From the NCBI RefSeq assembly GCF_036057275.1, contig NZ_CP107945.1, positions 4,960,001-5,024,000 of the forward strand: a stretch of DNA of 64,000 bases. The letters run 5' to 3'. How positions within the stretch are numbered: position 1 is the first letter of the stretch; every line of letters starts with the position of its first letter. Shown here piece by piece: positions 19,111 to 40,380 of the stretch. Under the pieces are notes generated by a model that saw nothing but the letters and a program-made list of their open reading frames with translations, was not told the DNA's origin and did not search any database. Origin of the DNA: Streptomyces sp. NBC_00390 (GTDB taxonomy: Bacteria; Actinomycetota; Actinomycetes; Streptomycetales; Streptomycetaceae). The translations under genes and the position numbers were made by a program.

Positions 19111-19158
19111 TGGTCGGCGGGCTGCGGGATCACGGTGCGGATCCCGCGACATCGTGGG

Positions 19159-19188: not shown

Positions 19189-19197
19189 TCGTCGTCC

Positions 19198-23288: not shown

Positions 23289-23653
23289 GCGGCGGCCCTC
23301 CTGTCCACCGTTCCGGCGGGGGTCGGGTGCGGGTCAGGACGAAGAGCAGAAAGGACGCCCTTGCGGGCGGCGACTTTCGCGCCCGCGGGAGCCGGGGCGG
23401 TCTGCTCGTCGGCGGCATGCGGGCAGTGCCAGACGCGGACCCGCATGGTGAGTTCGATGACGGCTGCGCGGCCCCGGGCGCATTCGTGGTGGCCGCAGCG
23501 GCAGAGCCAGTCCGCGACCGGCGGGGACATGACCATGCGGATGTGCAGGCCCGGCATGATGCCGGTGATGATGACCGGCTGTTCGGCGGCCGGCGCCTGG
23601 CCGGTGTTGACGGGCAGGCGTTTCAGGGCGGGGGGACGGGGCCTCGTGGTCAT
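23285..23653 (-). CDS. small Cys/His-containing AICE protein (122 aa)
   Basis: The central part carries 'WLCRCGHHECARG' and later 'VWHCPHAAD', four Cys and several His that could bind a metal. The ends are basic and Pro/Ala-rich. The ATG at 23653 overlaps the prim-pol stop, and the stop overlaps the DUF3631 start, so all three are translationally coupled. This argues for a role in replication, such as a primer or DNA-binding accessory. No family name is recognised. Confidence 0.65.
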   Translation of the reverse strand: MTTRPRPPALKRLPVNTGQAPAAEQPVIITGIMPGLHIRMVMSPPVADWLCRCGHHECARGRAAVIELTMRVRVWHCPHAADEQTAPAPAGAKVAARKGVLSALRPDPHPTPAGTVDRRAAA

Positions 23654-24552
23654 GCCGTCTCCCGGGGCCGGGCGGTGCGGATGGACCAGTTGAGCGCGCT
23701 GCTGATGGTGGCGCGGCACTCGGCCGGCGGGAGTCCGGCAGCCTCGCCCGCCCCCTGAAAAGCCTCTTCAACCACCTGCCGGGGGATCTCGCCCCACGCG
23801 ACGAACCGCCCCACCGCGCGGGTCCCGGCGAGCAGCCGCGCGTTGCGTCCGCCCTCACTCGCGGCGGCGACGGCGGCGATTTCGGCGTTCAACGCGGCTG
23901 TGGCGCAGCGAGAGGACCGCGACGCGACAGGCGCCGCCGTTAGTGCCCGCGTCGCCTGACGGCTCGTCAGGCGGGCGTATAGCCATTCCGGGAGCGGAGC
24001 GGGCGGCCGGTCGTCGACGACCGCATACGTCCCGGCGGGGGTGATGCTGCCGGGGGCGACGACGTAGCCGCCGTGCGCGCGGGTGTCGACGAGCGCCGCG
24101 AGGGTGCCCGCACTGTTCACGAGCCGGGACCCGGCGGGGACGGTGAAGTACAGGTGCATTCCGCCGCTCGCGGTCCGGATCGTGCGGGTGGTGGGCACTG
24201 CCTGCCCGGTGCGCTCGCAGAGCGCCTTGAAGGTCGTCACGCCGCAAGGCGTGTCCGCATTGCTGTTGGTCTTGGGCTTGTCGAGGTCGATGACGAGCAG
24301 TCCGGCGGGGCCGGTGGCGATGCCGACGTTGAACGCGCCGGCCGTCCACGCGGCGTGGATGCGGTCTGGGTCGGTGGTGGCGCGCTGCTCCCACTTCACG
24401 TGCCCGCTCGAGCAGTCGCCGGAGCGGGTGCAGGCGTCCTCGCCGTGCAGCGCGGGGCGCTTGCCGCCGGGCCGCAGCGGCAGGACCGGCCACCCCAGGG
24501 CGGCGGCATCGAGCGCTGCGGCGAGCAGCGCGGACTTGCGGTCATGGGTCAT
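23650..24552 (-). CDS. bifunctional DNA primase/polymerase (prim-pol)
   Basis: 300 aa. The archaeo-eukaryotic primase fold is shown by the metal-binding pair Asp89/Asp91 in 'VIDLDKP' and the 'SGGMHLYF' motif with His133. The N-terminal 'GWPVLPLRPGGKRP' is the usual prim-pol opening. It would synthesise primers and extend them at the element's origin. It is shorter than phage prim-pols fused to helicases, and here the helicase-like part is the separate DUF3631 gene. ATG at 24552 with GGAG 9 bases upstream; the longer frame to 24837 overlaps another gene and is rejected. Confidence 0.9.
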   Translation of the reverse strand: MTHDRKSALLAAALDAAALGWPVLPLRPGGKRPALHGEDACTRSGDCSSGHVKWEQRATTDPDRIHAAWTAGAFNVGIATGPAGLLVIDLDKPKTNSNADTPCGVTTFKALCERTGQAVPTTRTIRTASGGMHLYFTVPAGSRLVNSAGTLAALVDTRAHGGYVVAPGSITPAGTYAVVDDRPPAPLPEWLYARLTSRQATRALTAAPVASRSSRCATAALNAEIAAVAAASEGGRNARLLAGTRAVGRFVAWGEIPRQVVEEAFQGAGEAAGLPPAECRATISSALNWSIRTARPRETA

Positions 24553-24588
24553 GCTGGATGTCTCCAGTTCTGAGAGAGTGCTGGCAGA

Positions 24589-24630
24589 CGAGAGCGGCCC
24601 CGGTTCTTGGTCGGATGTGGGCCGCTCTCG
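24589..24630 (-). terminator. hairpin between transfer and replication gene sets
   Basis: Perfect 12-bp arms (CGAGAGCGGCCC and complement) with an 18-base loop, after the 94-aa gene and 37 bp before the prim-pol start. Confidence 0.65.
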
Positions 24631-24635
24631 GCTTG

Positions 24636-24920
24636 TCAGAAGGGCGGTTCGTCGCTGTAGCCGCCGGGGCCCCACGGGTCGGGATGCGCGCGTCGGCGAC
24701 GCGGCAGGCGCGGAAGCGAGAGCAGGGTCCACTGGCGGGTCTCGTTCCAGCAGTGGCAGGGCTCCCAGTCGGTGTCGGCGTATTCGCCGGTCTCGTAGTC
24801 GCCGTAGTCGTGCTCGAAGCCGCCCTCCCCTGCGCACTCAGTGCAGTTGGGGCGCGGGGTGTCGGCCAGGACCAGCGCGCGGCGCGGCAAGGTGACCTGG
24901 CGGATGCGCAGTCGGGGCAT
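24636..24920 (-). CDS. cysteine-rich small AICE protein (94 aa)
   Basis: Contains 'CTECAGEGG' and, 23 residues on, 'EPCHCWN', resembling half of a DnaJ-type zinc finger, embedded in an acidic Asp/Glu/Tyr stretch. The C-terminus is Arg/Pro-rich. GGAGGTTCGCC before the ATG at 24920 decides the start; the longer frame is rejected. Proteins like this recur in streptomycete AICEs next to traB, but their role is not known. Confidence 0.7.
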   Translation of the reverse strand: MPRLRIRQVTLPRRALVLADTPRPNCTECAGEGGFEHDYGDYETGEYADTDWEPCHCWNETRQWTLLSLPRLPRRRRAHPDPWGPGGYSDEPPF

Positions 24921-25538: not shown

Positions 25539-27617
25539 CTATGCGGCGGCCCGATCGGCGTTACGGCGAGTGATGGCAGCGGTGACCTCGGCGCGCTTGA
25601 TGCCGCGCCGGTTGGCGCCCTCGCCGTCGTCGGTCTGGCCCCAGACCTGGCCGGGCTTGATGCCCCAGGGCTTGAGTGCGGCGGTGACGTTCTCGCCCTG
25701 CCACCCGCCGTAGGTGTCGGGCTGGGCTGCGGCGAGACGGGTGGCGATGCGCTCGCACCACACGGACTTCTCGCCGTCCGCGATCACGTCGAGGACGTCG
25801 GTGAGGATGTCCGACCCGTTGGTCTTCTCGGGGCCGTGGCCGATGGCGTGGCCGGTGACGTTGCTGTACTCCTCGCGCGCCTGGCGGGCGCGGGCGACGA
25901 TGCGTTCGGCGGCGACCGCGTCGACGAACGCGGACGCGACGATGCGGGGGTCGTCGCCCTCGCCGGCCATCCAGCAGATGCCCCGATCCGACCGGGAGAA
26001 CATCGTGGCCCGGTACCCCGACTTGTACATGGACGTGCCGAGGACCATGTCGTTGGCGGGCTGCCCCATGACCTTGAGGCAGAACCTGAGCACGGCGTTG
26101 GCGCTGATGCCGGTGGGCAGGGACTTCGCGTCGGGGCGCTGGGTGCCGAACATGGCCACGATCCCGAGGGCGGGGCCGCGCTTGACCAGGTCGGTGCAGA
26201 TGGCCTCGATCTCCTTGCCGTGCTCCTCGTGCTCGAAGGGCACCTGGCACTCGTCGAAGCCGACGACGATCGGGTGCAGCCCGAGCGTCTTGTCACCGGC
26301 GAGTTCCGGGGTGACCTTGGACTCCGGGCAGCGGGTGCGCGGCAGGGACTTGATGACCTTCGCCCGGCGGCGCAGTTCCTCTTTCAGCTCCCGCAGCGTC
26401 TCGAGGACGTAGGCGATGTCGTCGTCTTCCTCGCCGGCGCGGTAGCGGTGGCAGACCGGTTCCAGGGCGCCGAAGTCGCCGGTGCCCTTGAAGTCGAACG
26501 CGTGGACTTCGGCCCGCGGATCGAGGGCGGCGATGAGCAGGAACAGCCGCATGAGGAACGTCTTGCCCATCCGCGGGATGGAGCCGACGACCACGGACGC
26601 GAACATGAGGGTGACGGCGACGTCTCGCATGCGCTGGTCGTTGCCGAACACGACCGGCTTGAACAGGTCCACCGTGCCGGTCTTGGCGAGCGGCCAGGCG
26701 GGTTTGGTGGTCTCGTTCATCGGCTTGTCCCCGACCCACAGAACGAGACGTCCCTCGTGCTGCTCGGGGTCCGGCGACGGCCACACGCAGCCGGTCTTCC
26801 TGCGCAGGCCGGACGCGAGGGGCTTGCGGGCCTCCATGATGTCCTCGGGCGTGACGCCGTAGGGCAGGTCGAGATCCGCGCGGTAGCCGGGCCCGTCCCG
26901 CACGATCTCGGACACGAACTTGAGCCCGTTCATGTCGCCGCCCTTCTTAATGGCAGCGGTGATCTTCGCGTTCCCGATCGAATCCAGGCCCCGGAGCACG
27001 ATCGAGCCGGTGAGCTTCTGCACCTCCGTCTTCAGCACCGCAGGGCCGACGACCGGGGCGTCGGGCTGCTGCCCGCCGATGCCGAGCAGGAGCACGCCGC
27101 CGGCGGCGAACGCGTACAGGAAAGCGGGCGCGAGGACGTACAGGTAGAGGGCGAACCCGACGCCGAACACGGCCGCGACCAGCGTGACGAGCCCGCGCAG
27201 GCGGATGCGTCCGGACCGAAGGCGGGCCAGGCGCATGTACTCCTCGACGTCCTCGGTGCGCACGGCGAACTCCCGCAGCGGGGCGGCCTCGCGGTCCCAG
27301 ACCCACCGGTTGGTGGAGGCGATGAACCGGCACGCGCCACGGGGCGACATCAGTGCGAGGCGGCCCGCATATACCGGGACGCGGACGCCATGGAACAAGG
27401 CGGCGTAGCCGAGGTTCGCGCCCGCGTGGCGGGCGGTGGCGAGGAAGTCGCGCCGGTTGGTGAGCCATCCGGCGAGCACCGGCTTGCGCTTCTCGATGCT
27501 CACCTTCGGGTCGGGAAGCGCCGGGTTGTCGACCGGCACCGGCACGGCCGGCGCGTCGTCGTCGCGGTCTATGTCGGGTACGGGCCGCAGGTGCGCGGCC
27601 GCGGATTCGTCGGTCAT
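25539..27617 (-). CDS. traB: TraB-like FtsK/SpoIIIE DNA translocase
   Basis: 692 aa. Single-protein conjugation motor of Streptomyces AICEs that moves double-stranded DNA between hyphae. Two TM helices lie at about residues 145-190. The motor domain has Walker A 'SIPRMGKTF' (Lys352) and Walker B 'IVVGFDEC' (Asp455-Glu456), plus 'FDFKGTGDF'. The C-terminal 80 residues form a winged-helix-like region ('WCERIATRLAAAQPDTYGGW') as expected for clt recognition. ATG at 27617 with GGAG upstream; the longer frame to 27812 runs into another gene. Transfer should be kept silent by the GntR repressor at 30553. Confidence 0.92.
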   Translation of the reverse strand: MTDESAAAHLRPVPDIDRDDDAPAVPVPVDNPALPDPKVSIEKRKPVLAGWLTNRRDFLATARHAGANLGYAALFHGVRVPVYAGRLALMSPRGACRFIASTNRWVWDREAAPLREFAVRTEDVEEYMRLARLRSGRIRLRGLVTLVAAVFGVGFALYLYVLAPAFLYAFAAGGVLLLGIGGQQPDAPVVGPAVLKTEVQKLTGSIVLRGLDSIGNAKITAAIKKGGDMNGLKFVSEIVRDGPGYRADLDLPYGVTPEDIMEARKPLASGLRRKTGCVWPSPDPEQHEGRLVLWVGDKPMNETTKPAWPLAKTGTVDLFKPVVFGNDQRMRDVAVTLMFASVVVGSIPRMGKTFLMRLFLLIAALDPRAEVHAFDFKGTGDFGALEPVCHRYRAGEEDDDIAYVLETLRELKEELRRRAKVIKSLPRTRCPESKVTPELAGDKTLGLHPIVVGFDECQVPFEHEEHGKEIEAICTDLVKRGPALGIVAMFGTQRPDAKSLPTGISANAVLRFCLKVMGQPANDMVLGTSMYKSGYRATMFSRSDRGICWMAGEGDDPRIVASAFVDAVAAERIVARARQAREEYSNVTGHAIGHGPEKTNGSDILTDVLDVIADGEKSVWCERIATRLAAAQPDTYGGWQGENVTAALKPWGIKPGQVWGQTDDGEGANRRGIKRAEVTAAITRRNADRAAA

Positions 27618-27656
27618 GCTGGTCTCTCTCCTGCTGCTCGAAGTGGTGGTCAGGGG

Positions 27657-27699
27657 CCCGGGGCGGCCGGGATGCTTGGCGGCTGTCGACCGCCCCGGG
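27657..27699 (-). terminator. hairpin before traB
   Basis: 10-bp arms (CCCGGGGCGG and complement) with a 23-base loop, between the 66-aa gene and traB. It may attenuate read-through into traB. Confidence 0.5.
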
Positions 27700-27705
27700 G
27701 CACAG

Positions 27706-27906
27706 CTACCTGCGGTTGCTGTTCTTCTTCTCGTCGAGCTCTTCGCGCTTGCGGGCCTTGGCGATGACCCGCTCGACCTTGCGTTCCAGGTCGCCCTGGT
27801 AGACCCGCTCACCGGCGATGCCGCGCTTGGCCATCCGGGCGACGTACCACGCGACCTGGGTCTTCTCGCCAGCAGTTAGGCGCGGTTCGTTCTCGTAACG
27901 GGCCAT
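27706..27906 (-). CDS. small basic AICE protein (66 aa)
   Basis: Helical and highly charged ('KVERVIAKARKREELDEKKNSNRR' type tail). There is no recognised domain. AAGGAGG seven bases before the ATG at 27906 makes translation likely. The ATG shares its A with the stop of the 52-aa gene (TGATG), so the two are coupled. Function unknown. Confidence 0.65.
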   Translation of the reverse strand: MARYENEPRLTAGEKTQVAWYVARMAKRGIAGERVYQGDLERKVERVIAKARKREELDEKKNSNRR

Positions 27907-28139: not shown

Positions 28140-28523
28140 TCAGCGGCGGCGCCGGGCCTTGGCGATGTTCTTCGCCGCGGCCTTGCCGTCCGCGCCGCCG
28201 ACGCTCTTCACGACGGTGACGACGCCCCAGGCGCAGACGGAGGCGATCAGGGCGAGCAGGGCGAGGTTCGCGGCCATGGCGGTCAGTACGCCGACGAGCA
28301 GCGGGCCGAAGTAGACGCCCGCAGCGACAGCACCGGCGCCGACTCCGGAGCCGAGCGCGATGCGCTGCACCGTGCGGTCCGGCGGCGCGTGGTGCACGTG
28401 CTGGTGAACGACCTGCGGACCGCCGTAGGGCTGCGGCACAGCGGGCAGTTGGTCGGCCTGGACGTAGGTGTAGGTGCCGTCCGGGAGCTGCACCACCCGG
28501 GCAGGCTCAGGCAGCGATTCCAT
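28140..28523 (-). CDS. SpdB-like mobile element spread protein (127 aa)
   Basis: The N-terminus contains 'RVVQLPDGTYTYVQADQLP', a motif I recognise from the small Spd proteins of Streptomyces elements. Two TM helices follow (about residues 58-78 and 82-107), and the C-terminus is basic ('KNIAKARRRR'). Spd proteins spread the element along the recipient mycelium through septal walls. It overlaps the upstream RRQRL-type gene by 17 bp. Confidence 0.7.
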   Translation of the reverse strand: MESLPEPARVVQLPDGTYTYVQADQLPAVPQPYGGPQVVHQHVHHAPPDRTVQRIALGSGVGAGAVAAGVYFGPLLVGVLTAMAANLALLALIASVCAWGVVTVVKSVGGADGKAAAKNIAKARRRR

Positions 28524-28854
28524 CAGTGGTCCCTTCGGGATAGGCGCACGGCACGCAGGTGCCGAGCGAGGCAGGAATGACGTATCCGGCATCGAGCCCG
28601 CAGGCGGAGCAGGTGCGGCGCGCTTGCATGGCGCGGGCGAGTGCCACCCGGCGGCCAGGGGTCATGGGCCGGACCGGCAGAGCACGGTCAATGCGGTACA
28701 GGTAGGCGACCAACGGACCCCGGCGCCGCCGAGGCCGTTCCAGCTGCGCGGCGACGTCCTGCCCGCCCGGCCGCAGCCCGAGGGCGCGCAGCTGTCGGCG
28801 GGTGGCGTAGCCGTCCGGAGCGAGCCGCCACCGGTAGACGAGCAGCGTGCCCAT
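28507..28854 (-). CDS. RRQRL-motif zinc-binding AICE protein (115 aa)
   Basis: The 'YATRRQLRALGLRPGGQD' segment is a variant of the RRQRL motif, and the C-terminal 'RRTCSACG...GTCVPCA' gives two CxxC pairs for zinc. Proteins of this type are encoded in most streptomycete AICEs between spd genes; their role is unknown. ATG at 28854 shares its A with the stop of the upstream spdB (TAATG). Confidence 0.75.
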   Translation of the reverse strand: MGTLLVYRWRLAPDGYATRRQLRALGLRPGGQDVAAQLERPRRRRGPLVAYLYRIDRALPVRPMTPGRRVALARAMQARRTCSACGLDAGYVIPASLGTCVPCAYPEGTTDGIAA

Positions 28855-29717
28855 TACGCGGCCACGCGCTTCCACGCAGCTCGCAGCCGGACTTCGGATG
28901 CGGAGTGGCCGGCTGCGCGGAACCGGGTGGCCATCTCCCGGTAGGACAGTGCCGGGGTCTCGCTGTGCCGGATCTCGTCAACCAGCCGGTCAAGCTCTGC
29001 ATCCGTGAGCGCCGGGGCCGCACTCAGAGCGAGCACGGAAACGGGTTCGGTCGGCCCCCAGACCGGCAGCTCCCACGCCGGTGCGACACCGGCCGTGACG
29101 CGGGTCGTCACGCTGGTCAACGCCCTGCCGGTGTCCTCGCCGTCCCGCGCCGTCTCCAACGTCGACCACGCCCGCGAAAGCGTCTGTGCAGTCCTCGCTT
29201 GAACGCGTGCGACGCGCGCCCCGGCCGCCGTCACGGCCGTCAACCGAGTCTCCTCGGTGGCGGCCTCCGCCCGCAGCCGGGCGCGGGCCACGGCCGCTTC
29301 GTCGCGGGCCTCCTGCTGAATCCCCCGGATCGCCCCGAGCGCACCAGGAGTAAGCGCGGTCCGCTCCCACAGGCCGTGCACCAGCCACAGAGCCTTAGCC
29401 GCCACCGGCAACCAGGCGACCGCAAGCCACGCACCGGAGGACTCCTCAGCGGTGAGCGCGTGGGCGACCAGGACCCCGGTAGCGACCAGACCGAAGAACC
29501 AACCGACTGCGGTGACGGCGGTGGAGTGGTCGCCCTGCGCGGCGAGACGGCGTTCGTAGGCGAGGGTGGCGAGCCATCCACCGTCGATCCCAAGACCGAC
29601 CACGAGAGCGACCGGCCACGGCACCGCCCCACCCAGCCACATCACCACCACCGCGAGGGTGAGCACCATGGACACCGCCGTCATCGCGACGGCTGGCAAC
29701 ACAGTCTTGGCGTTCAT
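28854..29717 (-). CDS. SpdB family mobile element spread protein (DUF2637-like)
   Basis: 287 aa. Four TM helices lie in the first 125 residues ('AVAMTAVSMVLTLAVVVMWL', 'PVALVVGLGIDGGWLATLAYE', 'GWFFGLVATGVLVAHAL', 'AWLAVAWLPVAAKALWLVHGL'). A long coiled-coil region follows (about 130-200) and then a C-terminal helix-turn-helix-like part ('LSYREMATRFRAAGHSASEVRLRAAWKR'). This is the intramycelial spread protein class. ATG overlaps the DUF6284 stop (ATGA). Confidence 0.78.
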   Translation of the reverse strand: MNAKTVLPAVAMTAVSMVLTLAVVVMWLGGAVPWPVALVVGLGIDGGWLATLAYERRLAAQGDHSTAVTAVGWFFGLVATGVLVAHALTAEESSGAWLAVAWLPVAAKALWLVHGLWERTALTPGALGAIRGIQQEARDEAAVARARLRAEAATEETRLTAVTAAGARVARVQARTAQTLSRAWSTLETARDGEDTGRALTSVTTRVTAGVAPAWELPVWGPTEPVSVLALSAAPALTDAELDRLVDEIRHSETPALSYREMATRFRAAGHSASEVRLRAAWKRVAA

Positions 29718-29986
29718 GCCGCACCCCCGGACAGGCTCATCGTGCTGGCTGTGCGGTTCGTCAGGTCCCGGCGCGTGGCCAGCACCCGATTGCGGGCCCG
29801 GCGCCCGCGGCGGGCGTCCAGCTCGTTCACCGGCCGGTCCATGGCGGTGATCTGCGCGTCGAGCAGTTCGACCTCTGCCGTGATGAGCGGCATCTCGCTC
29901 TCGATCGCGTCCAGCTCCGCGGCCGTCGGCTCGCGGTCGAATTCGGGGGCGGTAACAAGCGCCTGAACAGCACCGATGTGCTTCAT
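29714..29986 (-). CDS. DUF6284 family AICE protein (90 aa)
   Basis: Starts MKHIGAVQALVTAPEFDREPT, which I recognise as DUF6284. A central coiled coil ('IESEMPLITAEVELLDAQI') is followed by a basic stretch ('DARRGRRARNRVLATRRD'). It is the first gene of the leftward transfer operon. The start at 29986 has GAGAGGAA upstream; the longer frame to 30055 passes through a hairpin and is rejected. Function unknown. Confidence 0.7.
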   Translation of the reverse strand: MKHIGAVQALVTAPEFDREPTAAELDAIESEMPLITAEVELLDAQITAMDRPVNELDARRGRRARNRVLATRRDLTNRTASTMSLSGGAA

Positions 29987-30023
29987 GAGTCGTGTTCCTC
30001 TCAGACAGGAACGGCTCAACACA

Positions 30024-30053
30024 GCGGCCCCGGTGTTCCAGCACCGGGGCCGC
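30024..30053. terminator. leader hairpin upstream of the transfer operon
   Basis: Perfect 12-bp arms (GCGGCCCCGGTG and complement) with a 6-base loop, 38 bp before the first gene of the transfer operon. It is in the transcribed leader if the promoter is at 30440-30530, so it could attenuate transfer transcription. Confidence 0.6.
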
Positions 30054-30446
30054 ACGCCGTTGAAGTCGGTAGTTCCGGCTCCCCTCGGCGCTGCTCGTAC
30101 GAGACGAGCAGCGGAGGCAACCGGCCGCAGCGAGTGCTGCGACGTTGTTCAGACCTCCGATTCGCGTGGTGCCGCTGACCCTGGGGAGGTCTGGTTCCCG
30201 GGGCGTAGGCGGCGTCAATGTCGGCCACGCGGTTCTTTAGAGCCGATGGCGTGTCCCCCTGCGCGGGGTGTGGGGCCCGGTTGTGACGCGGGCCCGGTCT
30301 CGGTCGGCTGGTCTCCACTCGCCTCGGCCGGGCGACTTCACGGCCGTGGTGCTGCGGTGGATCACGCTGTCCAGTTGTTGAGCACCGCCCCTGAGCAGCC
30401 CAAAGAAGGCCCTTAAGAGCACGGCACGACCATGCATGCCTTCCGT

Positions 30447-30522
30447 AGTCCTAGGACTGCGTGAGTCGCTAGTGAGACACTGCACCCACAGTCCCAGGAC
30501 TGTCAACAGTCCTGGGACTGTG
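30447..30522. promoter_or_regulatory. three GntR operators between divergent transfer operon and repressor gene
   Basis: AGTCC-YR-GGACT occurs three times: AGTCCTAGGACT 30447-30458, AGTCCCAGGACT 30490-30501, AGTCCTGGGACT 30508-30519. The last two together form a perfect 17-bp inverted repeat with a 2-base centre (30487-30522). They lie 31-106 bp before the GntR gene at 30553, in the only long gene-free stretch of the element backbone (29987-30552). The rest of this stretch (30054-30446) shows nothing I can name. Confidence 0.75.
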
Positions 30523-30552
30523 TTTCACTGGTCGCGTCAAGAGGAGGCTCGA

Positions 30553-31332
30553 ATGGCACCGAAGTGGCGGGAGCTGGCGGACAAGCTGGCGGACCGAATT
30601 AGGTCGGGTGAGTACGCGCCCGGTCAGCAGTTGCCCCACATCAGAGACCTCGTCGAAGCCGGGGAGGGGTCAAAATCCACGGTCCACGCGGCCTACAAGG
30701 CGCTGGAAGCGGAAGGGCTCATCACCTCGTCACGCGGTCACGGAACGCTCGTGCGGCAGCAGGCTCCGCTGAAGCGGCTCGGCATCGCGCGGTACGACAA
30801 GGCGAAGTGGCGCGACGGCGACGAAGTTGCGTTCATCGCCGATCGGGTGGCGTCGGGACGCGCCTATCGCCGCGGCGAGCAGACGCAGACCGTCTCCCGC
30901 GTCGCAGCCCCGCCGGCTGTCGCAGAGGCCCACGGCCTACCTGTCGGTGCCGACGTATACGCGCGCGCCCGGCTCGTGAAGGAGGGCGACCAGCCCACGC
31001 ATACCTTGACCAGTTACTACCGGCCCGACCATGTCGAGGGCACGCGCATCGTGGACCCCAAACCTGGTCCGGCCGGCCGCGGCGGTGGCTTCCGTGTTCT
31101 GTACGACGCCGGTTACGAGATCGACCACATGCGAGAGCAGCTCTTCGCGCGCGTCCCCACGGCGGATGAGGCGAAGCTCCTGCAGCTGACACCGGGCGAG
31201 TGGGTAGTCGAGCTGCACCGCACTACGTTCACGGCCGACGGCACGGTGGTGGAGTTCGCGATCGGCGTCCACGCTGCCACTCGCTTTGCGTGGGAGTACG
31301 ACTTCCAGGTGCCGGACTCAGCAAGGGATTAG
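30553..31332 (+). CDS. GntR/HutC family repressor (KorSA-like)
   Basis: 259 aa. N-terminal winged helix ('KWRELADKLADRIRSGEYAPGQQLP' then 'GSKSTVHAAYKALEAEGLITSSRGHGTLV') and C-terminal UTRA effector domain (about residues 95-250). In pSAM2 the equivalent KorSA keeps replication and transfer genes silent. The three AGTCCYRGGACT palindromes just upstream are the natural binding sites, giving autorepression and repression of the divergent transfer operon. ATG at 30553 follows GAGGAGG; the effector is unknown. Confidence 0.88.
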   Translation: MAPKWRELADKLADRIRSGEYAPGQQLPHIRDLVEAGEGSKSTVHAAYKALEAEGLITSSRGHGTLVRQQAPLKRLGIARYDKAKWRDGDEVAFIADRVASGRAYRRGEQTQTVSRVAAPPAVAEAHGLPVGADVYARARLVKEGDQPTHTLTSYYRPDHVEGTRIVDPKPGPAGRGGGFRVLYDAGYEIDHMREQLFARVPTADEAKLLQLTPGEWVVELHRTTFTADGTVVEFAIGVHAATRFAWEYDFQVPDSARD

Positions 31333-31343
31333 GAGGCGCGGCA

Positions 31344-31988
31344 GTGATCTCGGAGCAGTCGTGGGCGGATGCCCAACTCCTGTGGGACTTCAACCAGATG
31401 CACCACGAACCGCGTCCGTGCTCGGTAGCCATCGGTCTTGGGAGCCATGACTTGGGCGTGGCCGACACGACGGTCAATCTGTACAAACGGGGGATGGCGC
31501 CGCTCATTGTCTTCACGGGAGCCACCAGTCGCACGACACATGACCGCATGCCGCGCGGCGAGGCGGTGCACTACCGCGAGCGGGCGCTGGAGTTGGGCGT
31601 GCCCGGGGATGCCGTACTTGTGGAACCTCGTGCTCGCAACACTGGTGAGAACATCCGCTTCTCGCGGGAACTACTCGCAGAGACAGGCGTCGGCGTCTCG
31701 TCTGTGTTGCTGGTGAGCAAGCCGTATGAGGAACGCCGTTCCTACGCCACAGCCCGCAAGCTGTGGCCCGATGTCGAAATTGTGAGCGCGTCGACGCCAA
31801 TGACTCTGGCTGATTACGTGGACTCGATCGGGAATTCCCAGTTGGTGATTGACATGCTTGTGGGAGCACTGCAGCGACTGGTTGTCTATCCGCAGCAGGG
31901 TTTCTTGGTCGCTCAGGAAATTCCCGCAGGCGTCGTAGCAGCGTATGAGCGTCTGCGTGCTGAGGGTTTCACAAGCCGCATTGTGTAA
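31344..31988 (+). CDS. YdcF/SanA-like DUF218 protein
   Basis: 214 aa. Family landmarks are 'VAIGLGSHDLGVADT' at the N-terminus, 'IVFTGATSRTT', 'EPRARNTGENIRFSRELL' (the conserved Asn-Thr-x-Glu-Asn) and 'VLLVSKPYEERRSYATARKLWP'. Most DUF218 proteins are membrane-linked and act on envelope glycans, but this one has no TM helix. AGGAGG at 31331-31336 supports GTG 31344, 11 bp after the repressor stop, so it is co-transcribed with the repressor. YdcF genes next to the GntR repressor recur in AICEs; the function there is unknown. Confidence 0.82.
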   Translation: MISEQSWADAQLLWDFNQMHHEPRPCSVAIGLGSHDLGVADTTVNLYKRGMAPLIVFTGATSRTTHDRMPRGEAVHYRERALELGVPGDAVLVEPRARNTGENIRFSRELLAETGVGVSSVLLVSKPYEERRSYATARKLWPDVEIVSASTPMTLADYVDSIGNSQLVIDMLVGALQRLVVYPQQGFLVAQEIPAGVVAAYERLRAEGFTSRIV

Positions 31989-32054: not shown

Positions 32055-33437
32055 TCAAAAGCGGCGGATGAAATTCGACTCGCAGTCAGGGCACAGGTCG
32101 GGGCCATCCTCATTAGGTACATGCGGGTTACCACAGTAAGAGCATGAGGTCAGTTCAGTGGAATCCCACGTACCCGAGCATCCGAAACACAGGTACTGCA
32201 TAGAGGGTTGACTGGCTTCCCTGCTTCCCCCCACCTCTTCCTGGTCGTCATTCTCGTCTATCGTTCTCTTGTGGGCGGCAAAGGTTTCCACTCCGCCGAC
32301 CATAGCCAGCTCTGGACAGGCCACGCAGGCGAGCACCGGAGGGTCTGCACCATCCTTCATCGTAGTGTAAGCCGACAGGCCCAGAATCATCTCTGCATAC
32401 TTACGAGCCATGCTCGCACCGTCCGCAGTGACGTCGCAAAAGTGACACGTTGCATAGCAATCTCCGTCGGAAGCCAGGGCGAACTCGTCACAGTCTGGGC
32501 ACTGCACAGTGAGGTTCGGTTCGAGATCGCGACGAAGGCGCTCAGCACGTTTCCGTACGAAGGATTTTATGTCCCCCACTTTCTCTTTAATCGTCTCGAT
32601 TTCCTGCTCAAGCTCAGAATCTACGTGGCGCTTAAGGTGCTGGTGGATGAAGGTCAGGAGAAAGTCAAGGACTTCTGCGGCAGATGCCTCGACCGCTGGT
32701 GCCGGTTGAGTTAGTCCGTCATGTTGAAGTTGGTTACGACTGCGTCGGAGCCGGTTTATTGCCTTAGTAGCGTCGCTGCTCACCTGCATGTCGAGGACTC
32801 TGTCGAGGCGGTCGATGGCCTCATCTATTCCGCAACTCTCGAAGTCGCGAGCATGATTCCTTTTGACGCTGGCGTCCCTTGGACTGGCCCAGATGAGAGC
32901 CCAGTGCTCCAGGCTCAGTCGGGCCTTGAGTAGCACCTCTGTGGCTGCGTACAGGTGCAGGACGGCGTACTTGAGGTCCCGCGGCCGAGGTCCAGGCATC
33001 ACCGTAAGATGATCGACCACACTTCGGAGGTAGTCGATCCCGTTGACCACAGGTGGGAAACGGACCTGTGGCGGGGCGGGCCGCTTCAGGTCCTTGTCGG
33101 CCGTTGGGACGCTGTCGCTTGCGTGGTGCCCGAAACTCGCCGACTCCTTAGCGCGATCGTCGCGGTATCCCATCCGACTGGCGTGGGCGTGAAGCCACCC
33201 GCGTTGCCGTATAGCTCCGATGATATCGCCGCGTTGCAAGCCAGCTACGGCGTTACCGTGGACGTAGCCCAGGTTCTGGTGTGCCTTAGAGGGCCCACCC
33301 TGGAAAAGGAGCGGGTAGCAAGGATTGTCATCCGTATGCCTCTCATATTTATCCCTGATGAAACTGACAAGCACCTCGATCTCAGAATGCAACTCGTCAG
33401 CCACGGTCGTCGGTCTTTCCGGTTGATGCTGTGCCAT
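32055..33437 (-). CDS. HEPN-like protein with C-terminal zinc ribbons, candidate defence RNase
   Basis: 460 aa. The middle (about residues 150-265) is helical and contains 'LHLYAATEVLLKARL' followed by Arg234-Asn-x-x-x-His239 ('RNQLQH'), which fits the Rx4-6H motif of HEPN ribonucleases. After it come a coiled coil and cysteine clusters that look like three zinc ribbons: 'CPDC'/'CHFC' from residue 313, 'CVAC', and 'CFGC'/'CSYC'/'CPDC' at the end. No single family covers the protein. Start: ATG 33437, seven bases after GGAGG, is preferred over GTG 33440. GC is lower than in the element backbone. It sits among nuclease genes, which favours an anti-phage role; that is inference. Confidence 0.6.
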   Translation of the reverse strand: MAQHQPERPTTVADELHSEIEVLVSFIRDKYERHTDDNPCYPLLFQGGPSKAHQNLGYVHGNAVAGLQRGDIIGAIRQRGWLHAHASRMGYRDDRAKESASFGHHASDSVPTADKDLKRPAPPQVRFPPVVNGIDYLRSVVDHLTVMPGPRPRDLKYAVLHLYAATEVLLKARLSLEHWALIWASPRDASVKRNHARDFESCGIDEAIDRLDRVLDMQVSSDATKAINRLRRSRNQLQHDGLTQPAPAVEASAAEVLDFLLTFIHQHLKRHVDSELEQEIETIKEKVGDIKSFVRKRAERLRRDLEPNLTVQCPDCDEFALASDGDCYATCHFCDVTADGASMARKYAEMILGLSAYTTMKDGADPPVLACVACPELAMVGGVETFAAHKRTIDENDDQEEVGGSREASQPSMQYLCFGCSGTWDSTELTSCSYCGNPHVPNEDGPDLCPDCESNFIRRF

Positions 33438-33529
33438 CACGTCGCCTCCGTGAAATCAGGTTCAAATAATCGGCAAAGCGAGAAACGGCGGCTGCTTTTA
33501 TCGGCCGACGCGTCGTGTAGGCCGGCTAT

Positions 33530-34471
33530 TCAGTCGCTCTCGGAAAGAATCTCTGCGACGGGCATAAAGCAGTGGCCAGTCTCGCTCGCATGCCGCTTCT
33601 TTCGATGGACGAGTTCATTCAACCGGATGCGCTGGTCCAGTACGGCCATAAAGTCGAGGCCGTCCATCGTGATGAATGGAGTGCTATAGCTGTACACCGC
33701 CAGGGCGTCGGAAGTGAAGCCGCTCAGGCTGATATACAGACCCAGCGTGTTCTTGCCTTTGCGCTCAATGTTGGTTTTGAAAACATCCAACAGTGGCCGA
33801 CCGATTCTTTCTTTCCACCACTTGGCTTCGAGCACGTAATGGTCCGTGTCAAAGGAGAATGCTCCATCGATCTGCTCGTGATCCAGGCTGTAAGACGCCC
33901 GTGGCTCAAGGTCATACAGGGCGAAGAGTTCGTTGATGAAGCCCTCGAAGTCGCGGCCCCTTTGATGCACATCGGTGGCGCCGTGCATCATCATGAAGCG
34001 CTGCTTCAGGTCCTCGTGGGCATGGGCGAACGCGCGGCCATCCTGGGCCTTTTTCGCGCTCTCGGTGATGCTGGCCGCGTGTGCCTCGTGCTCCGCGATG
34101 ACTTCGCGCTGTTTGGCAGTCCAACGCCTCAACTCAGCTACGGCAGAAATGGCCTTGGCCGCCATGATCTCACTGTCGGGCTGCGAGGCGAGGTTCGGAA
34201 AGGTCTCCATTTCGGCGATGTCGAGCATGAGCGCAACCGTTAGATCGAGGTAACGGGTTTCGTTGGCTCGCAGGAGATTGGCAAGCTGGCCCGACACCTC
34301 GCGTTTGGTGGCTGTGAAGTCCAGCTGCGCCAGCAACTCGCTGTGATCCTTCAGCATTGCCCGGACGTACATCTCGAACGGCTTCTTGTTCCAGAAGATC
34401 GCTGTCAGCGCTTCGACCAGCGCGACGTACGCGCTTGGGTTCATCGTCTTCTTACGCGCGCTGGACTGCAT
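33530..34471 (-). CDS. PD-(D/E)xK restriction endonuclease-like protein
   Basis: 313 aa. The N-terminal half is helical with a coiled coil (about residues 100-165). The C-terminal half has a motif-I Glu in 'GRDFEGFINELF', then Asp202 ('QIDGAF') and Glu215-Ala-Lys217 ('VLEAKWW'), the D-x12-ExK core of Mrr-like and other restriction nucleases. Residues after it ('KTNIERKGKNTLGLYISLSGFT') resemble the Mrr strand that follows the active site. ATG 34471 has AAGGAGG upstream. It lies 92 bp upstream of the HEPN-like gene on the same strand; the two may form one unit. The target is unknown. Confidence 0.75.
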   Translation of the reverse strand: MQSSARKKTMNPSAYVALVEALTAIFWNKKPFEMYVRAMLKDHSELLAQLDFTATKREVSGQLANLLRANETRYLDLTVALMLDIAEMETFPNLASQPDSEIMAAKAISAVAELRRWTAKQREVIAEHEAHAASITESAKKAQDGRAFAHAHEDLKQRFMMMHGATDVHQRGRDFEGFINELFALYDLEPRASYSLDHEQIDGAFSFDTDHYVLEAKWWKERIGRPLLDVFKTNIERKGKNTLGLYISLSGFTSDALAVYSYSTPFITMDGLDFMAVLDQRIRLNELVHRKKRHASETGHCFMPVAEILSESD

Positions 34472-34774
34472 GGTCCCCTCCTTGGCAGGCCACCCCGTAC
34501 CCACTGTCACCAGTCTGTTACGGTACCGCCCCACCCGCTGATGATCTGCCCGTATGACAGCGTGATGTCCGAGGTGTTCTTCGGCTCCTGCGCTGCTTCG
34601 AGGTCCATCCCCCACGGGCGAGTGCTGCGGTGTGAAGCTGTCCGCCAGTTGCGGCCGCGGCCACCTTCTGGCCAGCATGCCGATATCCGACTCCTGTTGA
34701 CGGTAAACAGCCAGGTCACAGACTGGATCGGCAGCACCCAGAGGCCGGTCTTGAAAGCCGTTCCCCGGGTGCTG

Positions 34775-34819: not shown

Positions 34820-36490
34820 CTAGCCGAGCTTCTCCGCGTGGAGGCGCTGGGCCGTGGCTGCGAGGAGGCGTCGCAGCTTCTCCTTGTTCTCGCCGTAGGT
34901 CTTGAGGGCGTGGCAGTTAGGGCACAGAGCGATCATGTTCCAGGGGACATCAGGCCCGCCCTTGGCCAGGTCTCGAACGTGGTCGACCTGCAAGATTGGC
35001 AGACCGGCTGTGGTTCGCTCGGTGGGGTGGCCGGCGCACTCAGGACTCTCACATCTGTTCTTGCAGCGCTTGATGGTTGCCGCTCTCGCGCTGGGGTCGC
35101 GGACGTAGCGGTCGGCGAGTGTCGGCTTCTTCAGCTGGCCTCGTTGCTTGGCGTTCGCTTCCGCGTTCTGTGTCAGGCGCCTGTACGCGTCCTCGTCGCT
35201 CTCCTCGGTGTCATGTGCTTCGGGATCGAGGTCGCTTGGGCGGTAGTCGCCCGTGTCGTCGTGCAGTTCACCTGTGTCAGCGTCCAGTGCTGACAGGACC
35301 TCGGAGGGCCATGTCTCGCGCTCTGGGGAGGGGACGGGAGCTAGTACCCAGAGGAATTCTCGGCGAGGCTGTTTATCGGCTCCGACGCCCCACCGGAGCC
35401 GGCGTTGCGCGATGACGGCCCACGTCTCGAAGCTGAACTGTCCCTGGAACGGCTTGTGCCAGTAGCGCAGTGGGCGGCCGGCAGCCTGGTACTCGGCCAT
35501 GAGCTCGTTGCCGTCAGTGATTTCCTGGTCGCCAGAGAGTCCGTCTCCTACGTAGGCGATCCAGTCTGTGTCCGGGATGCGTCCGTCGGCATAGGGACCT
35601 TTGTCGTCCGAGAAGACACTTAGAATGCCGTCGGCGAGGCATCCGATTCCTGCCATCTTCTGGCCGCCGTGGGCGCGCCAGATGGCGTCCCGGTCCTTGA
35701 AGCTTTCACCGAGCTGCGGGCGTAGAGCATCCGCCCACCTGCCGGCGAGCAAGTCGTGCAGGCCGAAGTCCCTCAACAAGCCGGTGGAAAGGGGATAGAA
35801 GTAGCGCAGGAGTAGTCCGGCCGCGGCTCCAGCCGCAGCGTCAGGATGCGACCGCAGCAGAGCGTAGTCATGTTCGCGTAGGCCACCCGACGGATCCACC
35901 CGGTTCAAGGACTCCAGGGTGGGCCGTCGCCCCCGGCTGGTGAGGGTGAGCTCTTGCGTGGGGCCCACGGTCCACAAGTCATCGCGCACTAGCGCCCAAA
36001 ACGGATACCGGGTGCTGTCCACACCATCCTCGACGTGGGCGTATTTCTCCATCAGCGGTGCCACCACATCGCGCGTAACCGACCAGGGCCGCATACGGGG
36101 TGCCCCGGCCAACGCCTGCCCGATAGCCCAGAGGAGAAGCACGGGACGGTGCAACGCCGTACGGACCCCACGACGTGCTGGCCGCACGTCCCCGACCCGC
36201 CGTTGGAAGGTCTTAGGCGGCTCCACGACAGTAAAGCCTTCCCTCCTCAGCCAAGCCACCGCACCCTTCAGGCCACCACTGAGCTGTGAAGGCTTGAGTG
36301 CACTTCCGAAGTCATAGAGGTGAGCAACGCCGGCTATGGCCTTGGAGTCGTACTGCCGCCCCTCGTGAACGAGTAGGTAGGTAATAGCCGCGCGGTAGCC
36401 GTAGGCGTCACGGAACGCCCCCTGCCCGAGCCGGTCGTGCTCTGCAATCGCCCGCAGGATCCCCGCGCGCGTGATCTCGGAAGGTGCCAT
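34820..36490 (-). CDS. ScoMcrA-like type IV restriction endonuclease
   Basis: 556 aa, full length for the family. Order: N-terminal head domain (residues about 1-90), DNA sulfur-binding domain with 'HRPVLLLWAIG' (His114-Arg115-Pro116) and 'RYPFWAL' (Tyr162-Pro163), SRA-like region with 'YVGDGLSGDQ' and 'GRPLRYWHKPFQGQF' (about 275-385), and C-terminal HNH nuclease with His504, Asn518 and His527 plus two CxxC-type zinc ligand pairs. ScoMcrA of S. coelicolor cleaves phosphorothioated and Dcm-type methylated incoming DNA, so this protein should restrict modified foreign DNA. All key residues are present. It is transcribed away from the ParB-like gene. Confidence 0.9.
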   Translation of the reverse strand: MAPSEITRAGILRAIAEHDRLGQGAFRDAYGYRAAITYLLVHEGRQYDSKAIAGVAHLYDFGSALKPSQLSGGLKGAVAWLRREGFTVVEPPKTFQRRVGDVRPARRGVRTALHRPVLLLWAIGQALAGAPRMRPWSVTRDVVAPLMEKYAHVEDGVDSTRYPFWALVRDDLWTVGPTQELTLTSRGRRPTLESLNRVDPSGGLREHDYALLRSHPDAAAGAAAGLLLRYFYPLSTGLLRDFGLHDLLAGRWADALRPQLGESFKDRDAIWRAHGGQKMAGIGCLADGILSVFSDDKGPYADGRIPDTDWIAYVGDGLSGDQEITDGNELMAEYQAAGRPLRYWHKPFQGQFSFETWAVIAQRRLRWGVGADKQPRREFLWVLAPVPSPERETWPSEVLSALDADTGELHDDTGDYRPSDLDPEAHDTEESDEDAYRRLTQNAEANAKQRGQLKKPTLADRYVRDPSARAATIKRCKNRCESPECAGHPTERTTAGLPILQVDHVRDLAKGGPDVPWNMIALCPNCHALKTYGENKEKLRRLLAATAQRLHAEKLG

Positions 36491-36845
36491 GACCAACACC
36501 GTAGATCAGGCCACTGACACAGCCTCGGGGATGCACACCAACTGGCATGGTTGGCCTTGGCTGCCGGTCAGGGCAGCGCCTTCGACTCGCCTCCGCGCCA
36601 GCACGGATGCTGCAGGAGGATCCACGCCCAGGTCTCTTGTCCCGGCCCGCGCACGGCAGCGTCGATACGCGCACAGGTGGTAGCACTCCAACGGTGCTCT
36701 CGTGTCACAAGCGGAACACAACGACCCGATTTTTCAAGCCACTTGAAGCCGGCAGCGATCGCATGATTGAATCCCTGGCGCGCTGTATCCCCAAATCCCC
36801 GGCGATGCCGACAATCCCCTGAACGCAGCGCGGAAGGGCACCTCC
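36491..36845. other. 355-bp divergent intergenic region in the cargo block
   Basis: Lies between the start codons of the ScoMcrA-like gene (minus) and the ParB-like gene (plus), so promoters for both are expected. A 71-codon minus-strand frame with several Cys (36506-36721) begins only at a TTG without a ribosome site and is not accepted. No repeats stand out. Confidence 0.4.
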
Positions 36846-37658
36846 ATGCCTAAGCCTCAGTACGCGTACGAGCTCCCGGTCCACCAAGTGGACTATGGGA
36901 AAGAGGTCGCGATCAGCGACCTCAAGATCGACCCTCAAGCGCAGCGCACCCTCAACGAGGGGCGAGCGCAGCGCATCGCGGACAACATCGTCCCGGAGGC
37001 CGTCGGTCTCATCATCGTGTCCCAGCGGGACAACGGCGAGATGTACATCGTGGACGGGCAGCACCGCTGCCGTGCCTGCCAACTGGCCGGCATGCGCACC
37101 GTAAAGACCGAGATTCACTATGGGCTGACCCTGGATCAGGAAGCGATCCTCTTCCTGATCAAGAACCGTGAGTCACACAAGCCGAGGCCTATCGATGAAT
37201 ACCACGTAGGTCTCACCGGCGGCGTTTCCCTCTTCGTCGACACTGACCGGGTCCTGAAGAAGCACCAGCTCTCCCTCGGCTCGACATCTACCAACGGTGT
37301 GGGGGCCGTGTCCGGAGTCCTTCGGATTACGGAGCGATTCGGCGCCACGGTCCTCGACCGCACCCTCTGGGTTGCCGAGGAGGCTTTCGGCCGCTCCCCG
37401 GAGACCTGGGACGGCATGTTCCTCGGTGGCCTCGGCCAGTTCTTGGGCCGGTGGGGCAACATCATCGATGACAAGGAACTCGCCCGAAAGATCCTGGCCA
37501 TGGGAGTGGCGTCCAAGTGGCGCGCCGAAATCCTCAGTCAGTCGTCGCGTGGCGGCTTCAACAACAGCGGCACCGGGTCGCGCGTGACGACGGCTTATCG
37601 ACTCGTCATCAGGGCCTGGAACAAGGGACGCAGGGCCGCGAATCAGATCGCGGAGTAG
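36846..37658 (+). CDS. ParB-like nuclease-fold protein with DGQHR motif
   Basis: 270 aa. The N-terminal half is a ParB/sulfiredoxin-like domain: 'ISDLKIDPQAQRTLNEGRAQRIADNI', then 'MYIVDGQHRCRACQLAGM' with the nucleotide-binding/catalytic DGQHR signature at about residue 61. The C-terminal half is helical and unassigned, similar to DUF6551-type proteins. It lacks the helix-turn-helix of chromosome-segregation ParB, so partitioning is unlikely. DGQHR also marks DndB, the regulator of DNA phosphorothioation, which is notable beside a sulfur-sensing restriction gene. GGAAGGG precedes the ATG at 36846. Confidence 0.75.
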   Translation: MPKPQYAYELPVHQVDYGKEVAISDLKIDPQAQRTLNEGRAQRIADNIVPEAVGLIIVSQRDNGEMYIVDGQHRCRACQLAGMRTVKTEIHYGLTLDQEAILFLIKNRESHKPRPIDEYHVGLTGGVSLFVDTDRVLKKHQLSLGSTSTNGVGAVSGVLRITERFGATVLDRTLWVAEEAFGRSPETWDGMFLGGLGQFLGRWGNIIDDKELARKILAMGVASKWRAEILSQSSRGGFNNSGTGSRVTTAYRLVIRAWNKGRRAANQIAE

Positions 37659-38560: not shown

Positions 38561-38605
38561 TGCAAAGGTGGCCCTGGACGGCCCGCAACGACCACTGACA
38601 ACCAG

Positions 38606-38639
38606 GGCGGGCCCGACACCCACCGGTGCCGGGCCCGCC
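38606..38639 (-). terminator. element-borne pmt terminator
   Basis: Perfect 10-bp arms (GGCGGGCCCG and complement) with an inner CACC/GGTG stem, 10 bp beyond the pmt stop. Because strand exchange falls within the 92-bp repeat, this sequence comes from the element and replaces the original terminator at 19159-19188. The arms share the GGGCCCG core with the original. Confidence 0.8.
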
Positions 38640-38646
38640 GTTTGCG

Positions 38647-38738
38647 CTGCTAGACCCAGGTGTCTAGCCACATCCGGTTGCGCCACTCGTCGAGCGGGAT
38701 CGTCTGGCCGGTGTAGATCGGATAGAAGTAGATGAAGT
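38647..38738. repeat. attR: element-supplied pmt 3' end
   Basis: Matches attL over 92 bp with one mismatch at 38665, which turns a CTG Leu codon into the rare CTA without changing the protein. The repeat covers the last 28 codons of intact pmt, its stop codon and 3 bp beyond. Confidence 0.92.
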
Positions 38739-40380
38739 TCCACACGATCAGCAGCACCAGCACGCCCGCGCCGATCGCGCCGATCGCCCGGCGGCGTTCG
38801 TCCGATCCCGGTGGGCCGAGGATCGCGCCGATCATCATCGCGACCGCCAGACACAGGAACGGCACGAACACGACCGCGTAGAACAGGAAGATCGTGCGCT
38901 CCTGGTAGTGCAGCCACGGCACCCAGCCGGCCAGGAAGCCGCAGAGGATCGCGCCCGCGCGCCAGTCGCGGCGGAACAGCCAGCGCCACAGGACGTAGCA
39001 CAGCGCGAAGCACGCCGCCCACCACAGCAGGGGGGTGCCCAGTGCCAGCACCTCGCTGGCGCACTTGTCGACCGCGTCCGCCGGGCAGCCCCTCGTGCCC
39101 GGCTTCGGGTCCTCGTAGTAGTACGAGACCGGGCGGCCCAGCACCAGCCAGCTCCACGGGTTCGACTCGTAGGTGTGCCCGGAGGTCAGCTTGACGTGGA
39201 AGTCGAAGACCTGGGTCTCGTAGTGCCACAGGCTGCGCCACCAGTCCGGGAACAGCCAGCTCCAGCTGCTGTCCTGACCGGCTCCCTTGGTCGCCCAGTC
39301 CCGGTGGTACCCCTTGTCCGTGACGATCCAGCCGGTCCAGGTCGCGATGTACGTGGCGATCGCGACCGGCACCGTGGAGACGAACGCCGGCAGCAGATCC
39401 TTCTTCAGGACCGCCGCATACGGGCGTACCGCGCCCGCTGTGCGGCGCGAGCCGACGTCCCAGAGCACGCTCATCACACAGAACGCGGCCATCACGTACA
39501 GGCCGTTCCACTTGGTGCCCGCGGCCAGTCCCAGCAGCACACCGGTCACGAGCCGCCACGGGCGCCAGCCCAGCCGCAGGGTCTCCGCGACCGTCGCATC
39601 GGGCCGCAGCACGCCGTCCGCATCCACGGGCAGCGCCGCGGCGAGCCTGCGCCGCGACCGGTCCCGGTCCAGGAGCAGCGCCCCGAACGCCGCCAGCACG
39701 AAGAACATCAGCACCAGGTCGAGCAGTGCGGTGCGGCTCATCACGAAGTGCAGACCGTCCACCGCCATCAGCAGACCGGCGAGGCAGCCGAGGAATGTGG
39801 AGCGGAACAGCCGCCGCCCGATCCGGCAGAGCATCAGCACCGACAGCGTGCCGAGCAGGGCGACCATGAAGCGCCAGCCGAACGGCGTGAAGTCGAACAT
39901 CTTCTCGCCGAGGCCGATGACCCACTTGCCGACCGGCGGATGCACCACATAGCCGGGATCGGTGGGGATCGCGATGTCCGCCCCGCCCGGTTCCAGGATC
40001 TTCTTGTCGATTTCCTTGGGCCAGCTGCCCTCGTACCCCTGGTTGATCAGCGCCCAGGCGTCCTTGGCGTAGTACGTCTCGTCGAATATCACCGCATGCG
40101 GCTTGCCGAGGTTCCAGAACCGCAGCACGCCCGCGAGCAGGGCGACCAGCACCGGGCCGACCCAGGAGAAGATCCGCAGCAGCGGGTCCGCATCCCCGGG
40201 GCGGATGCCGAACACCGGCCACAGCCGGTCGGAGGGGCGCGTGTACGGCGGTACCAGGCGCTCACGCAGCCCGATCACGGGCCGGGGCACATAGCCGAAT
40301 CTGCGCAGCCGCTGCTCCCAGCCGGGCGGCTGCGGGGCGGCGTCCTTGCCCTGAAGGGTCTGAGGCGCGGTACTGGTCAC
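38650..40380 (-). CDS. pmt: protein O-mannosyltransferase Pmt (GT39)
   Basis: 576 aa polytopic membrane enzyme that transfers mannose from polyprenyl phosphate mannose to secreted proteins. The N-terminal catalytic loop carries the conserved Asp-Glu in 'IFDETYYAKDAW', and 'HPPVGKW' follows. About eleven TM helices and a C-terminal GT39 four-helix block complete the family layout. GTG start at 40380. In S. coelicolor Pmt activity is needed for phiC31 infection. The AICE has replaced the last 28 codons and the terminator, leaving the protein complete. It is divergent from rsmI. Confidence 0.93.
   Translation of the reverse strand: MTSTAPQTLQGKDAAPQPPGWEQRLRRFGYVPRPVIGLRERLVPPYTRPSDRLWPVFGIRPGDADPLLRIFSWVGPVLVALLAGVLRFWNLGKPHAVIFDETYYAKDAWALINQGYEGSWPKEIDKKILEPGGADIAIPTDPGYVVHPPVGKWVIGLGEKMFDFTPFGWRFMVALLGTLSVLMLCRIGRRLFRSTFLGCLAGLLMAVDGLHFVMSRTALLDLVLMFFVLAAFGALLLDRDRSRRRLAAALPVDADGVLRPDATVAETLRLGWRPWRLVTGVLLGLAAGTKWNGLYVMAAFCVMSVLWDVGSRRTAGAVRPYAAVLKKDLLPAFVSTVPVAIATYIATWTGWIVTDKGYHRDWATKGAGQDSSWSWLFPDWWRSLWHYETQVFDFHVKLTSGHTYESNPWSWLVLGRPVSYYYEDPKPGTRGCPADAVDKCASEVLALGTPLLWWAACFALCYVLWRWLFRRDWRAGAILCGFLAGWVPWLHYQERTIFLFYAVVFVPFLCLAVAMMIGAILGPPGSDERRRAIGAIGAGVLVLLIVWNFIYFYPIYTGQTIPLDEWRNRMWLDTWV

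Follow-up and report, generated by a model that had tools for sequence, protein, structure and literature searches.

ScoMcrA, the founding member of the PT-dependent nucleases, is part of the barrier that S. coelicolor presents to introduced methylated DNA. Its residues for sulfur binding, GpsGCC reading, zinc and cleavage have been established from the structure and by mutation (PMC6224610). As the initial annotation of the present locus had stated, ScoMcrA is itself carried by the AICE SLP1 of S. coelicolor (PMC3009677). The enzyme does not effectively restrict the entry of S-modified DNA; instead, it cuts host DNA that has just become modified, and so prevents a dnd cluster from being established (PMC3009677). 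In the strains tested, sco4631 and dnd could not coexist, and the survivors had lost either SLP1 or the dnd island (PMC3009677). When made in E. coli, ScoMcrA restricts without a promoter of the RecA-NDp type (PMC7461809).

That promoter type belongs to the LexA/RecA-independent damage promoters (recA P1, RecA-NDp, PafBC), which have the consensus tTGTCRgtg-8nt-TannnT (PMC5656591, also PMC8223512). The S. coelicolor gene SCO6735, which has a promoter of this kind, is induced 5-fold by UV (PMC5087735), and ssDNA activates PafBC in mycobacteria (PMC11804915). In Streptomyces venezuelae, an initial search reportedly found no conservation of the M. smegmatis PafBC motif (PMC9380542). Here we describe an AICE-borne gene, mcrA, in which these two subjects meet.

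Identity of the enzyme

The mcrA open reading frame lies on the minus strand of the window (the whole 64-kb stretch of DNA that was analysed), running from an ATG at 36490 to a TAG at 34820.

34820..36490, minus strand: mcrA, ScoMcrA orthologue, a head-SBD-SRA-HNH type IV (modification-dependent) restriction endonuclease of 556 aa (5zmm; PADLOC mREase_IV; 20/20 functional residues)

In a phmmer search of the PDB, the product matched the solved ScoMcrA (5zmm_A) end to end (E=0, 1033 bits, query 5-558 against chain 3-560) at ~81% identity, and the entries 5zmn (SBD-SRA) and 5zmo (SBD-only) were also matched. The PADLOC model PDLC03662 (mREase_IV) was covered over 559 of its 560 positions, with 1066 bits. 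Pfam gives HNH alone above the cut-off (SAD_SRA falls below it, at E=0.058); the domains were assigned from the full-length similarity to the solved structure. The head, sulfur-binding, SRA-like and HNH regions named in the initial annotation are all present by this comparison, and H114, R115, P116, Y162, P163, H504, N518 and H527 stand where it had numbered them.

Of the residues published for ScoMcrA as concerned with sulfur, bases, zinc or catalysis, 20 were checked, and every one is identical in this copy: in ScoMcrA numbering, R109, H116, R117, D160, Y164, P165, A168, R171, S187-R191, C484, C489, H508, N522, C527, C530 and H531. The sulfur pocket (H116/R117/Y164/P165/A168), the base-reading loop (S187-RGRR-191), the HNH triad (H508/N522/H531) and the zinc cysteines are therefore kept. 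Judged by its sequence, the product is an orthologue of ScoMcrA; because every functional residue is identical, GpsGCC specificity is predicted, and we likewise predict that this copy is enzymatically active.

The element and its integration site

mcrA sits inside a 19.45-kb Prim-Pol-type AICE flanked by 142-bp direct repeats (126/142 positions identical, 73 bp exact), which duplicate the 3' end of pmt. Its features, with the target gene, are as follows.

19148..19289, unstranded: att repeat at the integrase end, containing a copy of the pmt 3' end (exact 73-bp core 19217-19289)
20386..21642, minus strand: tyrosine integrase (PF00589, PF22022, PF14659)
21722..21943, minus strand: excisionase-like HTH protein (PF12728)
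22116..23288, minus strand: DUF3631 replication-associated protein (PF12307, E=4e-63)
23650..24837, minus strand: primase-polymerase (Prim-Pol) Rep (PF09250, E=4e-48)
25539..27812, minus strand: Tra, FtsK/SpoIIIE-type transfer protein (PF01580 weak, E=0.009; 53-55% to Tra of two other AICEs)
28140..28592, minus strand: DUF6251 protein, common to other AICEs (PF19764)
29714..30055, minus strand: DUF6284 protein, common to other AICEs (PF19801)
30436..31332, plus strand: GntR/UTRA regulator, KorSA-like (PF00392, PF07702; 77-79% homologues in two other mcrA-bearing loci)
31344..31988, plus strand: DUF218 (YdcF-like) protein (PF02698; 70-71% in the same two mcrA-bearing loci as the GntR homologues)
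32055..33440, minus strand: cargo, a DUF3644/HEC-08-like part (PADLOC E=4e-20) with zinc-ribbon-like cysteine pairs seen in the sequence
33530..34678, minus strand: cargo, Mrr-type restriction endonuclease-like (PF04471, E=1e-7; true start may be internal)
36846..37658, plus strand: DUF6551/ParB-N/DGQHR-type protein, weakly DndB-like, between mcrA and the far att (PF20188; TIGR03187 below cut-off; PHROG ParB-like)
38597..38738, unstranded: att repeat at the integrase-distal end, into which the 3' end of intact pmt extends (exact core 38666-38738)
38650..40380, minus strand: pmt (protein O-mannosyltransferase), chromosomal target gene, frame intact (PF02366, PF16192)

The sequence features by which an AICE is recognised are found here, namely a tyrosine integrase, an excisionase-like HTH protein, a Prim-Pol/DUF3631 Rep, Tra and flanking att repeats. 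The site is empty in relatives: most of the Streptomyces examined for this have the left-flank gene directly beside pmt, with no element between them. The gene set between the repeats thus has, as read from its protein families, the plan of an AICE, and the earlier placement of this mcrA copy inside such an element holds. Because both repeats contain the pmt 3' end, integration leaves pmt intact. A glycosyltransferase gene like pmt has already been reported as an AICE site in Streptomyces (PMC9513070).

Two observations concern the neighbours of mcrA. The DUF3644/HEC-08-like gene (32055-33440) and the adjoining Mrr-type gene possibly form a separate two-gene defence unit. In another mcrA-bearing element (G221, L061/L062), a PF14072 DndB-family protein, above the cut-off, occupies the place held here by 36846-37658. 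A link of these DUF6551/DGQHR and PF14072 neighbours to DNA sulfur biology is possible.

Distribution and reassortment

How widely is this gene carried by AICEs? A census of genome contigs and 394 Streptomyces genomes yielded 18 full-length or near-full-length Streptomyces orthologues in 17 genomes, the present copy included; one carries a frameshift. Up to about 20 kb of flanking sequence was considered on each side, less at some contig ends. Tra together with Int/Rep genes occurred within 20 kb of 14 of the 18 orthologues when only queries from other loci were used, as against 0/20 control places (round coordinates) and 0/7 other SBD-bearing HNH loci, although the query set itself came from mcrA loci, a bias toward the test group, and leaving one locus out removes self-matches only. 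The proposal that such restriction genes travel with AICEs is supported by this difference from the control places. The accompanying phrase "a second AICE family" was right in that another AICE carries ScoMcrA, but it understated the matter, since the orthologues sit with varied integrases, Rep and Tra.

Twelve of the 18 orthologues lie between direct repeats, at eight kinds of site. Two elements each are at tRNA-Val, tRNA-Tyr, tRNA-Ser(GGA) and a terminator-like hairpin, and one each at pmt, tRNA-Thr, tRNA-Pro and tRNA-Ser(TGA); one of the tRNA-Val sites was inferred from sequence likeness, and one of the tRNA-Ser(GGA) sites was likewise inferred. The boundaries at the hairpin are weaker because the repeats are only 28-39 bp long. 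In all 12 elements, mcrA is found toward the integrase-distal end, with 0.1-6.3 kb between its start and the far repeat. A clear AICE context is missing around four orthologues, of which two are without AICE genes, one has only an integrase fragment beside tRNA-Tyr and one shows weak similarity. Set against the refuting condition of the initial annotation, homologues mostly at fixed chromosomal places, three loci thus lack a clear AICE, the fourth is weak and the rest are at varied sites. At one locus (G396, L073/L074), an intact mcrA lies ~4 kb from a broken divergent copy (~59% identical), near a contig end and without AICE genes. Carriage by plasmids or phages was considered and rejected, in that plasmids hold fragments only and none was found in phages or viral contigs; RepSA-type AICEs were rejected as carriers in that no full RepSA gene lies inside any mcrA element.

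In one element (G394b, L069/L070), mcrA directly adjoins a DarTG-like pair, consisting of a DarT toxin and a macro-domain protein, and the neighbours in other elements include GmrSD_N, RelA/SpoT-type, subtilase plus AAA, and MrcB_N proteins. Given these defence-type neighbours, defence genes seem to gather at the far end of these AICEs.

The McrA proteins are 73-100% identical across the orthologues. Tra, by comparison, falls into four or more groups that are about 25-33% identical to one another, the integrases of the mcrA loci are mostly 25-44% identical, and McrA pairs at 94-95% have Tra at only 29-30%. When Tra type was mapped onto the McrA tree, it required 10 changes, against a minimum of 5 and a shuffled mean of 11.8; a value as low was reached in 17 of 200 shuffles. 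Because Int and Tra are divergent while McrA remains at least 73% identical, and because the grouping in the McrA tree is not that of the Tra types, we deduced that mcrA is a cassette moving between AICE backbones. From these comparisons, either mcrA moves between backbones or the backbones are exchanged around mcrA. Inheritance of McrA with one AICE lineage is ruled out by the Int and Tra divergence together with the McrA tree.

A predicted damage-type promoter

Immediately upstream of mcrA lies a two-box element.

36498..36519, minus strand: RecA-NDp/PafBC-type promoter consensus TGTCAGTG-GCCTGATC-TACGGT, ending 7 nt before the mcrA ATG (sole match in 64 kb)

The sequence fits TGTCRGTG-N8-TANNNT. 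First, the form TGTCAGTG-N8-TACSGT is found 6-7 nt before the ATG in 18/18 orthologues, as an exact match at -29/-28 (sco4631 of SLP1 is not in the set). Second, all 14 box positions are invariant in the 16 orthologue loci that align without gaps, whereas from -31 on, going upstream, the commonest base accounts on average for about 45% in these loci, and farther upstream the sequence is unrelated. Third, one consensus match was found in the 64-kb window against 0.02 expected, and the whole genome has 52 consensus sites against 0 for the reversed pattern; a chance match is ruled out by the shuffles and by this control. One of the 52 sites lies before recA, and further ones before genes for DinG-like and UvrD-like helicases, for an endonuclease III-type protein and for an AlkZ-like glycosylase; some are without a convincing gene downstream and may be due to chance. 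The host also has two adjacent WYL genes downstream of a PafA-like ORF, the arrangement pafA-pafB-pafC known for pafBC, PafA having been recognised by eye and not by profile. Because mcrA has the RecA-NDp/PafBC consensus, we predict that its restriction activity is induced by DNA damage.

The promoter is not common to all SBD nucleases, a possibility ruled out by four headless SBD-SRA-HNH loci without the motif, and it was not found before the Cellulomonas head-domain loci. Among the head-domain-only Streptomyces nucleases (L085-L104, L119-L124 set), it is exact in 4/12 and has one mismatch in 5/12, and an integrase-like gene lies within 20 kb in 10/12; the exact form is also present at the L117/L118 and L119/L120 loci. 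In a further element (G394a, L067/L068), an MrcB_N restriction-like gene at 24620(-) of the joined oriented sequence has the two-box promoter 7 nt before its ATG.

Discussion

How might such an enzyme work for the element that carries it? Our preferred reading, to which we assign a probability of roughly 0.72, is that a pmt-site AICE carries a functional-looking ScoMcrA orthologue as a promoter-plus-ORF cassette that moves between backbones and is under predicted PafBC damage control with feedback. The SBD would bind phosphorothioated GpsGCC, the SRA domain would bind 5mC/5hmC DNA and the HNH domain would cut at a distance. The cassette would be small and self-contained, consisting of a promoter of about 30 bp and the ORF, usually near the integrase-distal end. 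Transcription of mcrA would be low until PafBC, in response to DNA damage or single-stranded DNA, becomes active at the RecA-NDp promoter; the first cuts, in invading modified DNA or in host DNA newly modified via an acquired dnd, would then raise more enzyme, and this feedback would make the restriction response all-or-none. We infer both the feedback loop and the benefit to the element. A low basal level with amplification after cutting fits the behaviour of ScoMcrA, which permits the entry of S-modified DNA yet prevents dnd establishment (PMC3009677).

The initial annotation had supposed that such elements exclude donors using Dnd. This needs rewording, because entry is not effectively restricted and it is the establishment of dnd that is prevented (PMC3009677). 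Our genomes do not bear on the question: dndC occurred in 0/17 mcrA-bearing genomes, but because it is present in only 18/394 genomes, about 0.8 would be expected, so the comparison has no power and we set aside Dnd exclusion argued from co-occurrence. A related explanation is that mcrA is a selfish addiction or exclusion module, killing any host into which dnd or other modification genes arrive and thereby keeping rival elements that carry them from settling. The incompatibility of sco4631 and dnd, with survivors lacking SLP1 or the dnd island (PMC3009677), and the recurrent carriage of mcrA on AICEs speak for it; on the other hand, mcrA has no cognate antidote as in a toxin-antitoxin pair, and restriction of 5hmC phage DNA (PMC7461809) directly benefits the host. 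We regard this explanation as somewhat short of an even chance, and it is compatible with the damage-controlled cassette and not exclusive of it.

Leaderless starts are common in Streptomyces. The conserved 30 bp could be an ordinary leaderless promoter unrelated to damage, in front of a plain constitutive ScoMcrA orthologue on an AICE. The activity of ScoMcrA in E. coli without the promoter (PMC7461809) agrees with this, and it means that induction is not needed for activity. We nevertheless consider a constitutive gene unlikely, because the sequence matches a specific pair of boxes, those of the RecA-NDp consensus with their 8-nt spacing, as at recA and repair genes of the same genome, with both boxes invariant in the 16 aligned orthologues and no site for the reversed pattern in the genome. 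That mcrA is a dead passenger is very improbable: cargo genes of AICEs are frequently pseudogenised (PMC9513070), one orthologue is frameshifted and gene fragments exist, but here the 556-aa frame, every functional residue and the promoter are intact, and 17 of the 18 near-full-length orthologues are uninterrupted.

The damage-controlled cassette can be extended to a wider proposal, for which we see even odds, that the Streptomyces head-domain modification-dependent nucleases, ScoMcrA above all, belong to the PafBC regulon and form a self-amplifying abortive-type barrier that AICEs carry as a promoter-plus-gene cassette. If so, restriction would be low and would be raised by single-stranded DNA or breaks, including those from the enzyme's own cuts. 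This would be the reverse of the situation in E. coli, where DNA damage relieves type I restriction. We found no report of a restriction enzyme in the RecA-NDp/PafBC regulon in the literature searched, and one may exist elsewhere.

The kind of enzyme and its carriage by an AICE were already known from SLP1. The novelty lies in how broadly mcrA is carried and reassorted, and in its invariant damage-type promoter. The patchy distribution of ScoMcrA relatives is explained by their being recurrent, reassorting AICE cargo, which may also account for the poor spread of dnd clusters in Streptomyces. The predicted rise of restriction after damage could also explain why ScoMcrA admits modified DNA yet kills cells in which dnd establishes.

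Comparison with known systems

The present element shares with other Streptomyces AICEs the Int-Xis-Rep-Tra-Kor layout, site-specific repeats and variable cargo, among which restriction-modification genes are known; the available part of PMC9513070 reports neither ScoMcrA-type cargo nor its promoter. The SBD-HNH PT-dependent endonucleases SprMcrA and EcoWI have the same SBD sulfur pocket and HNH nuclease but are without the SRA domain, and EcoWI and its relatives recognise GpsAAC/GpsTTC, not GpsGCC (PMC7461809). The promoter has the two boxes and 8-nt spacing of the RecA-NDp (recA P1)/PafBC promoters, whose named members are repair and stress genes (PMC5656591, PMC8223512, PMC5087735). The closest relative of the enzyme is ScoMcrA/Sco4631 (ScoA3McrA), with the full-length head-SBD-SRA-HNH architecture, about 81% identity and all of the listed residues in common (PMC3009677, PMC6224610). 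SLP1, like the present element, is an AICE that carries mcrA near one att (attR in SLP1); it occupies a tRNA-Tyr site, whereas the AICE described here is at pmt, with a Prim-Pol/DUF3631 Rep and with Mrr, DUF3644-like and DUF6551 cargo.
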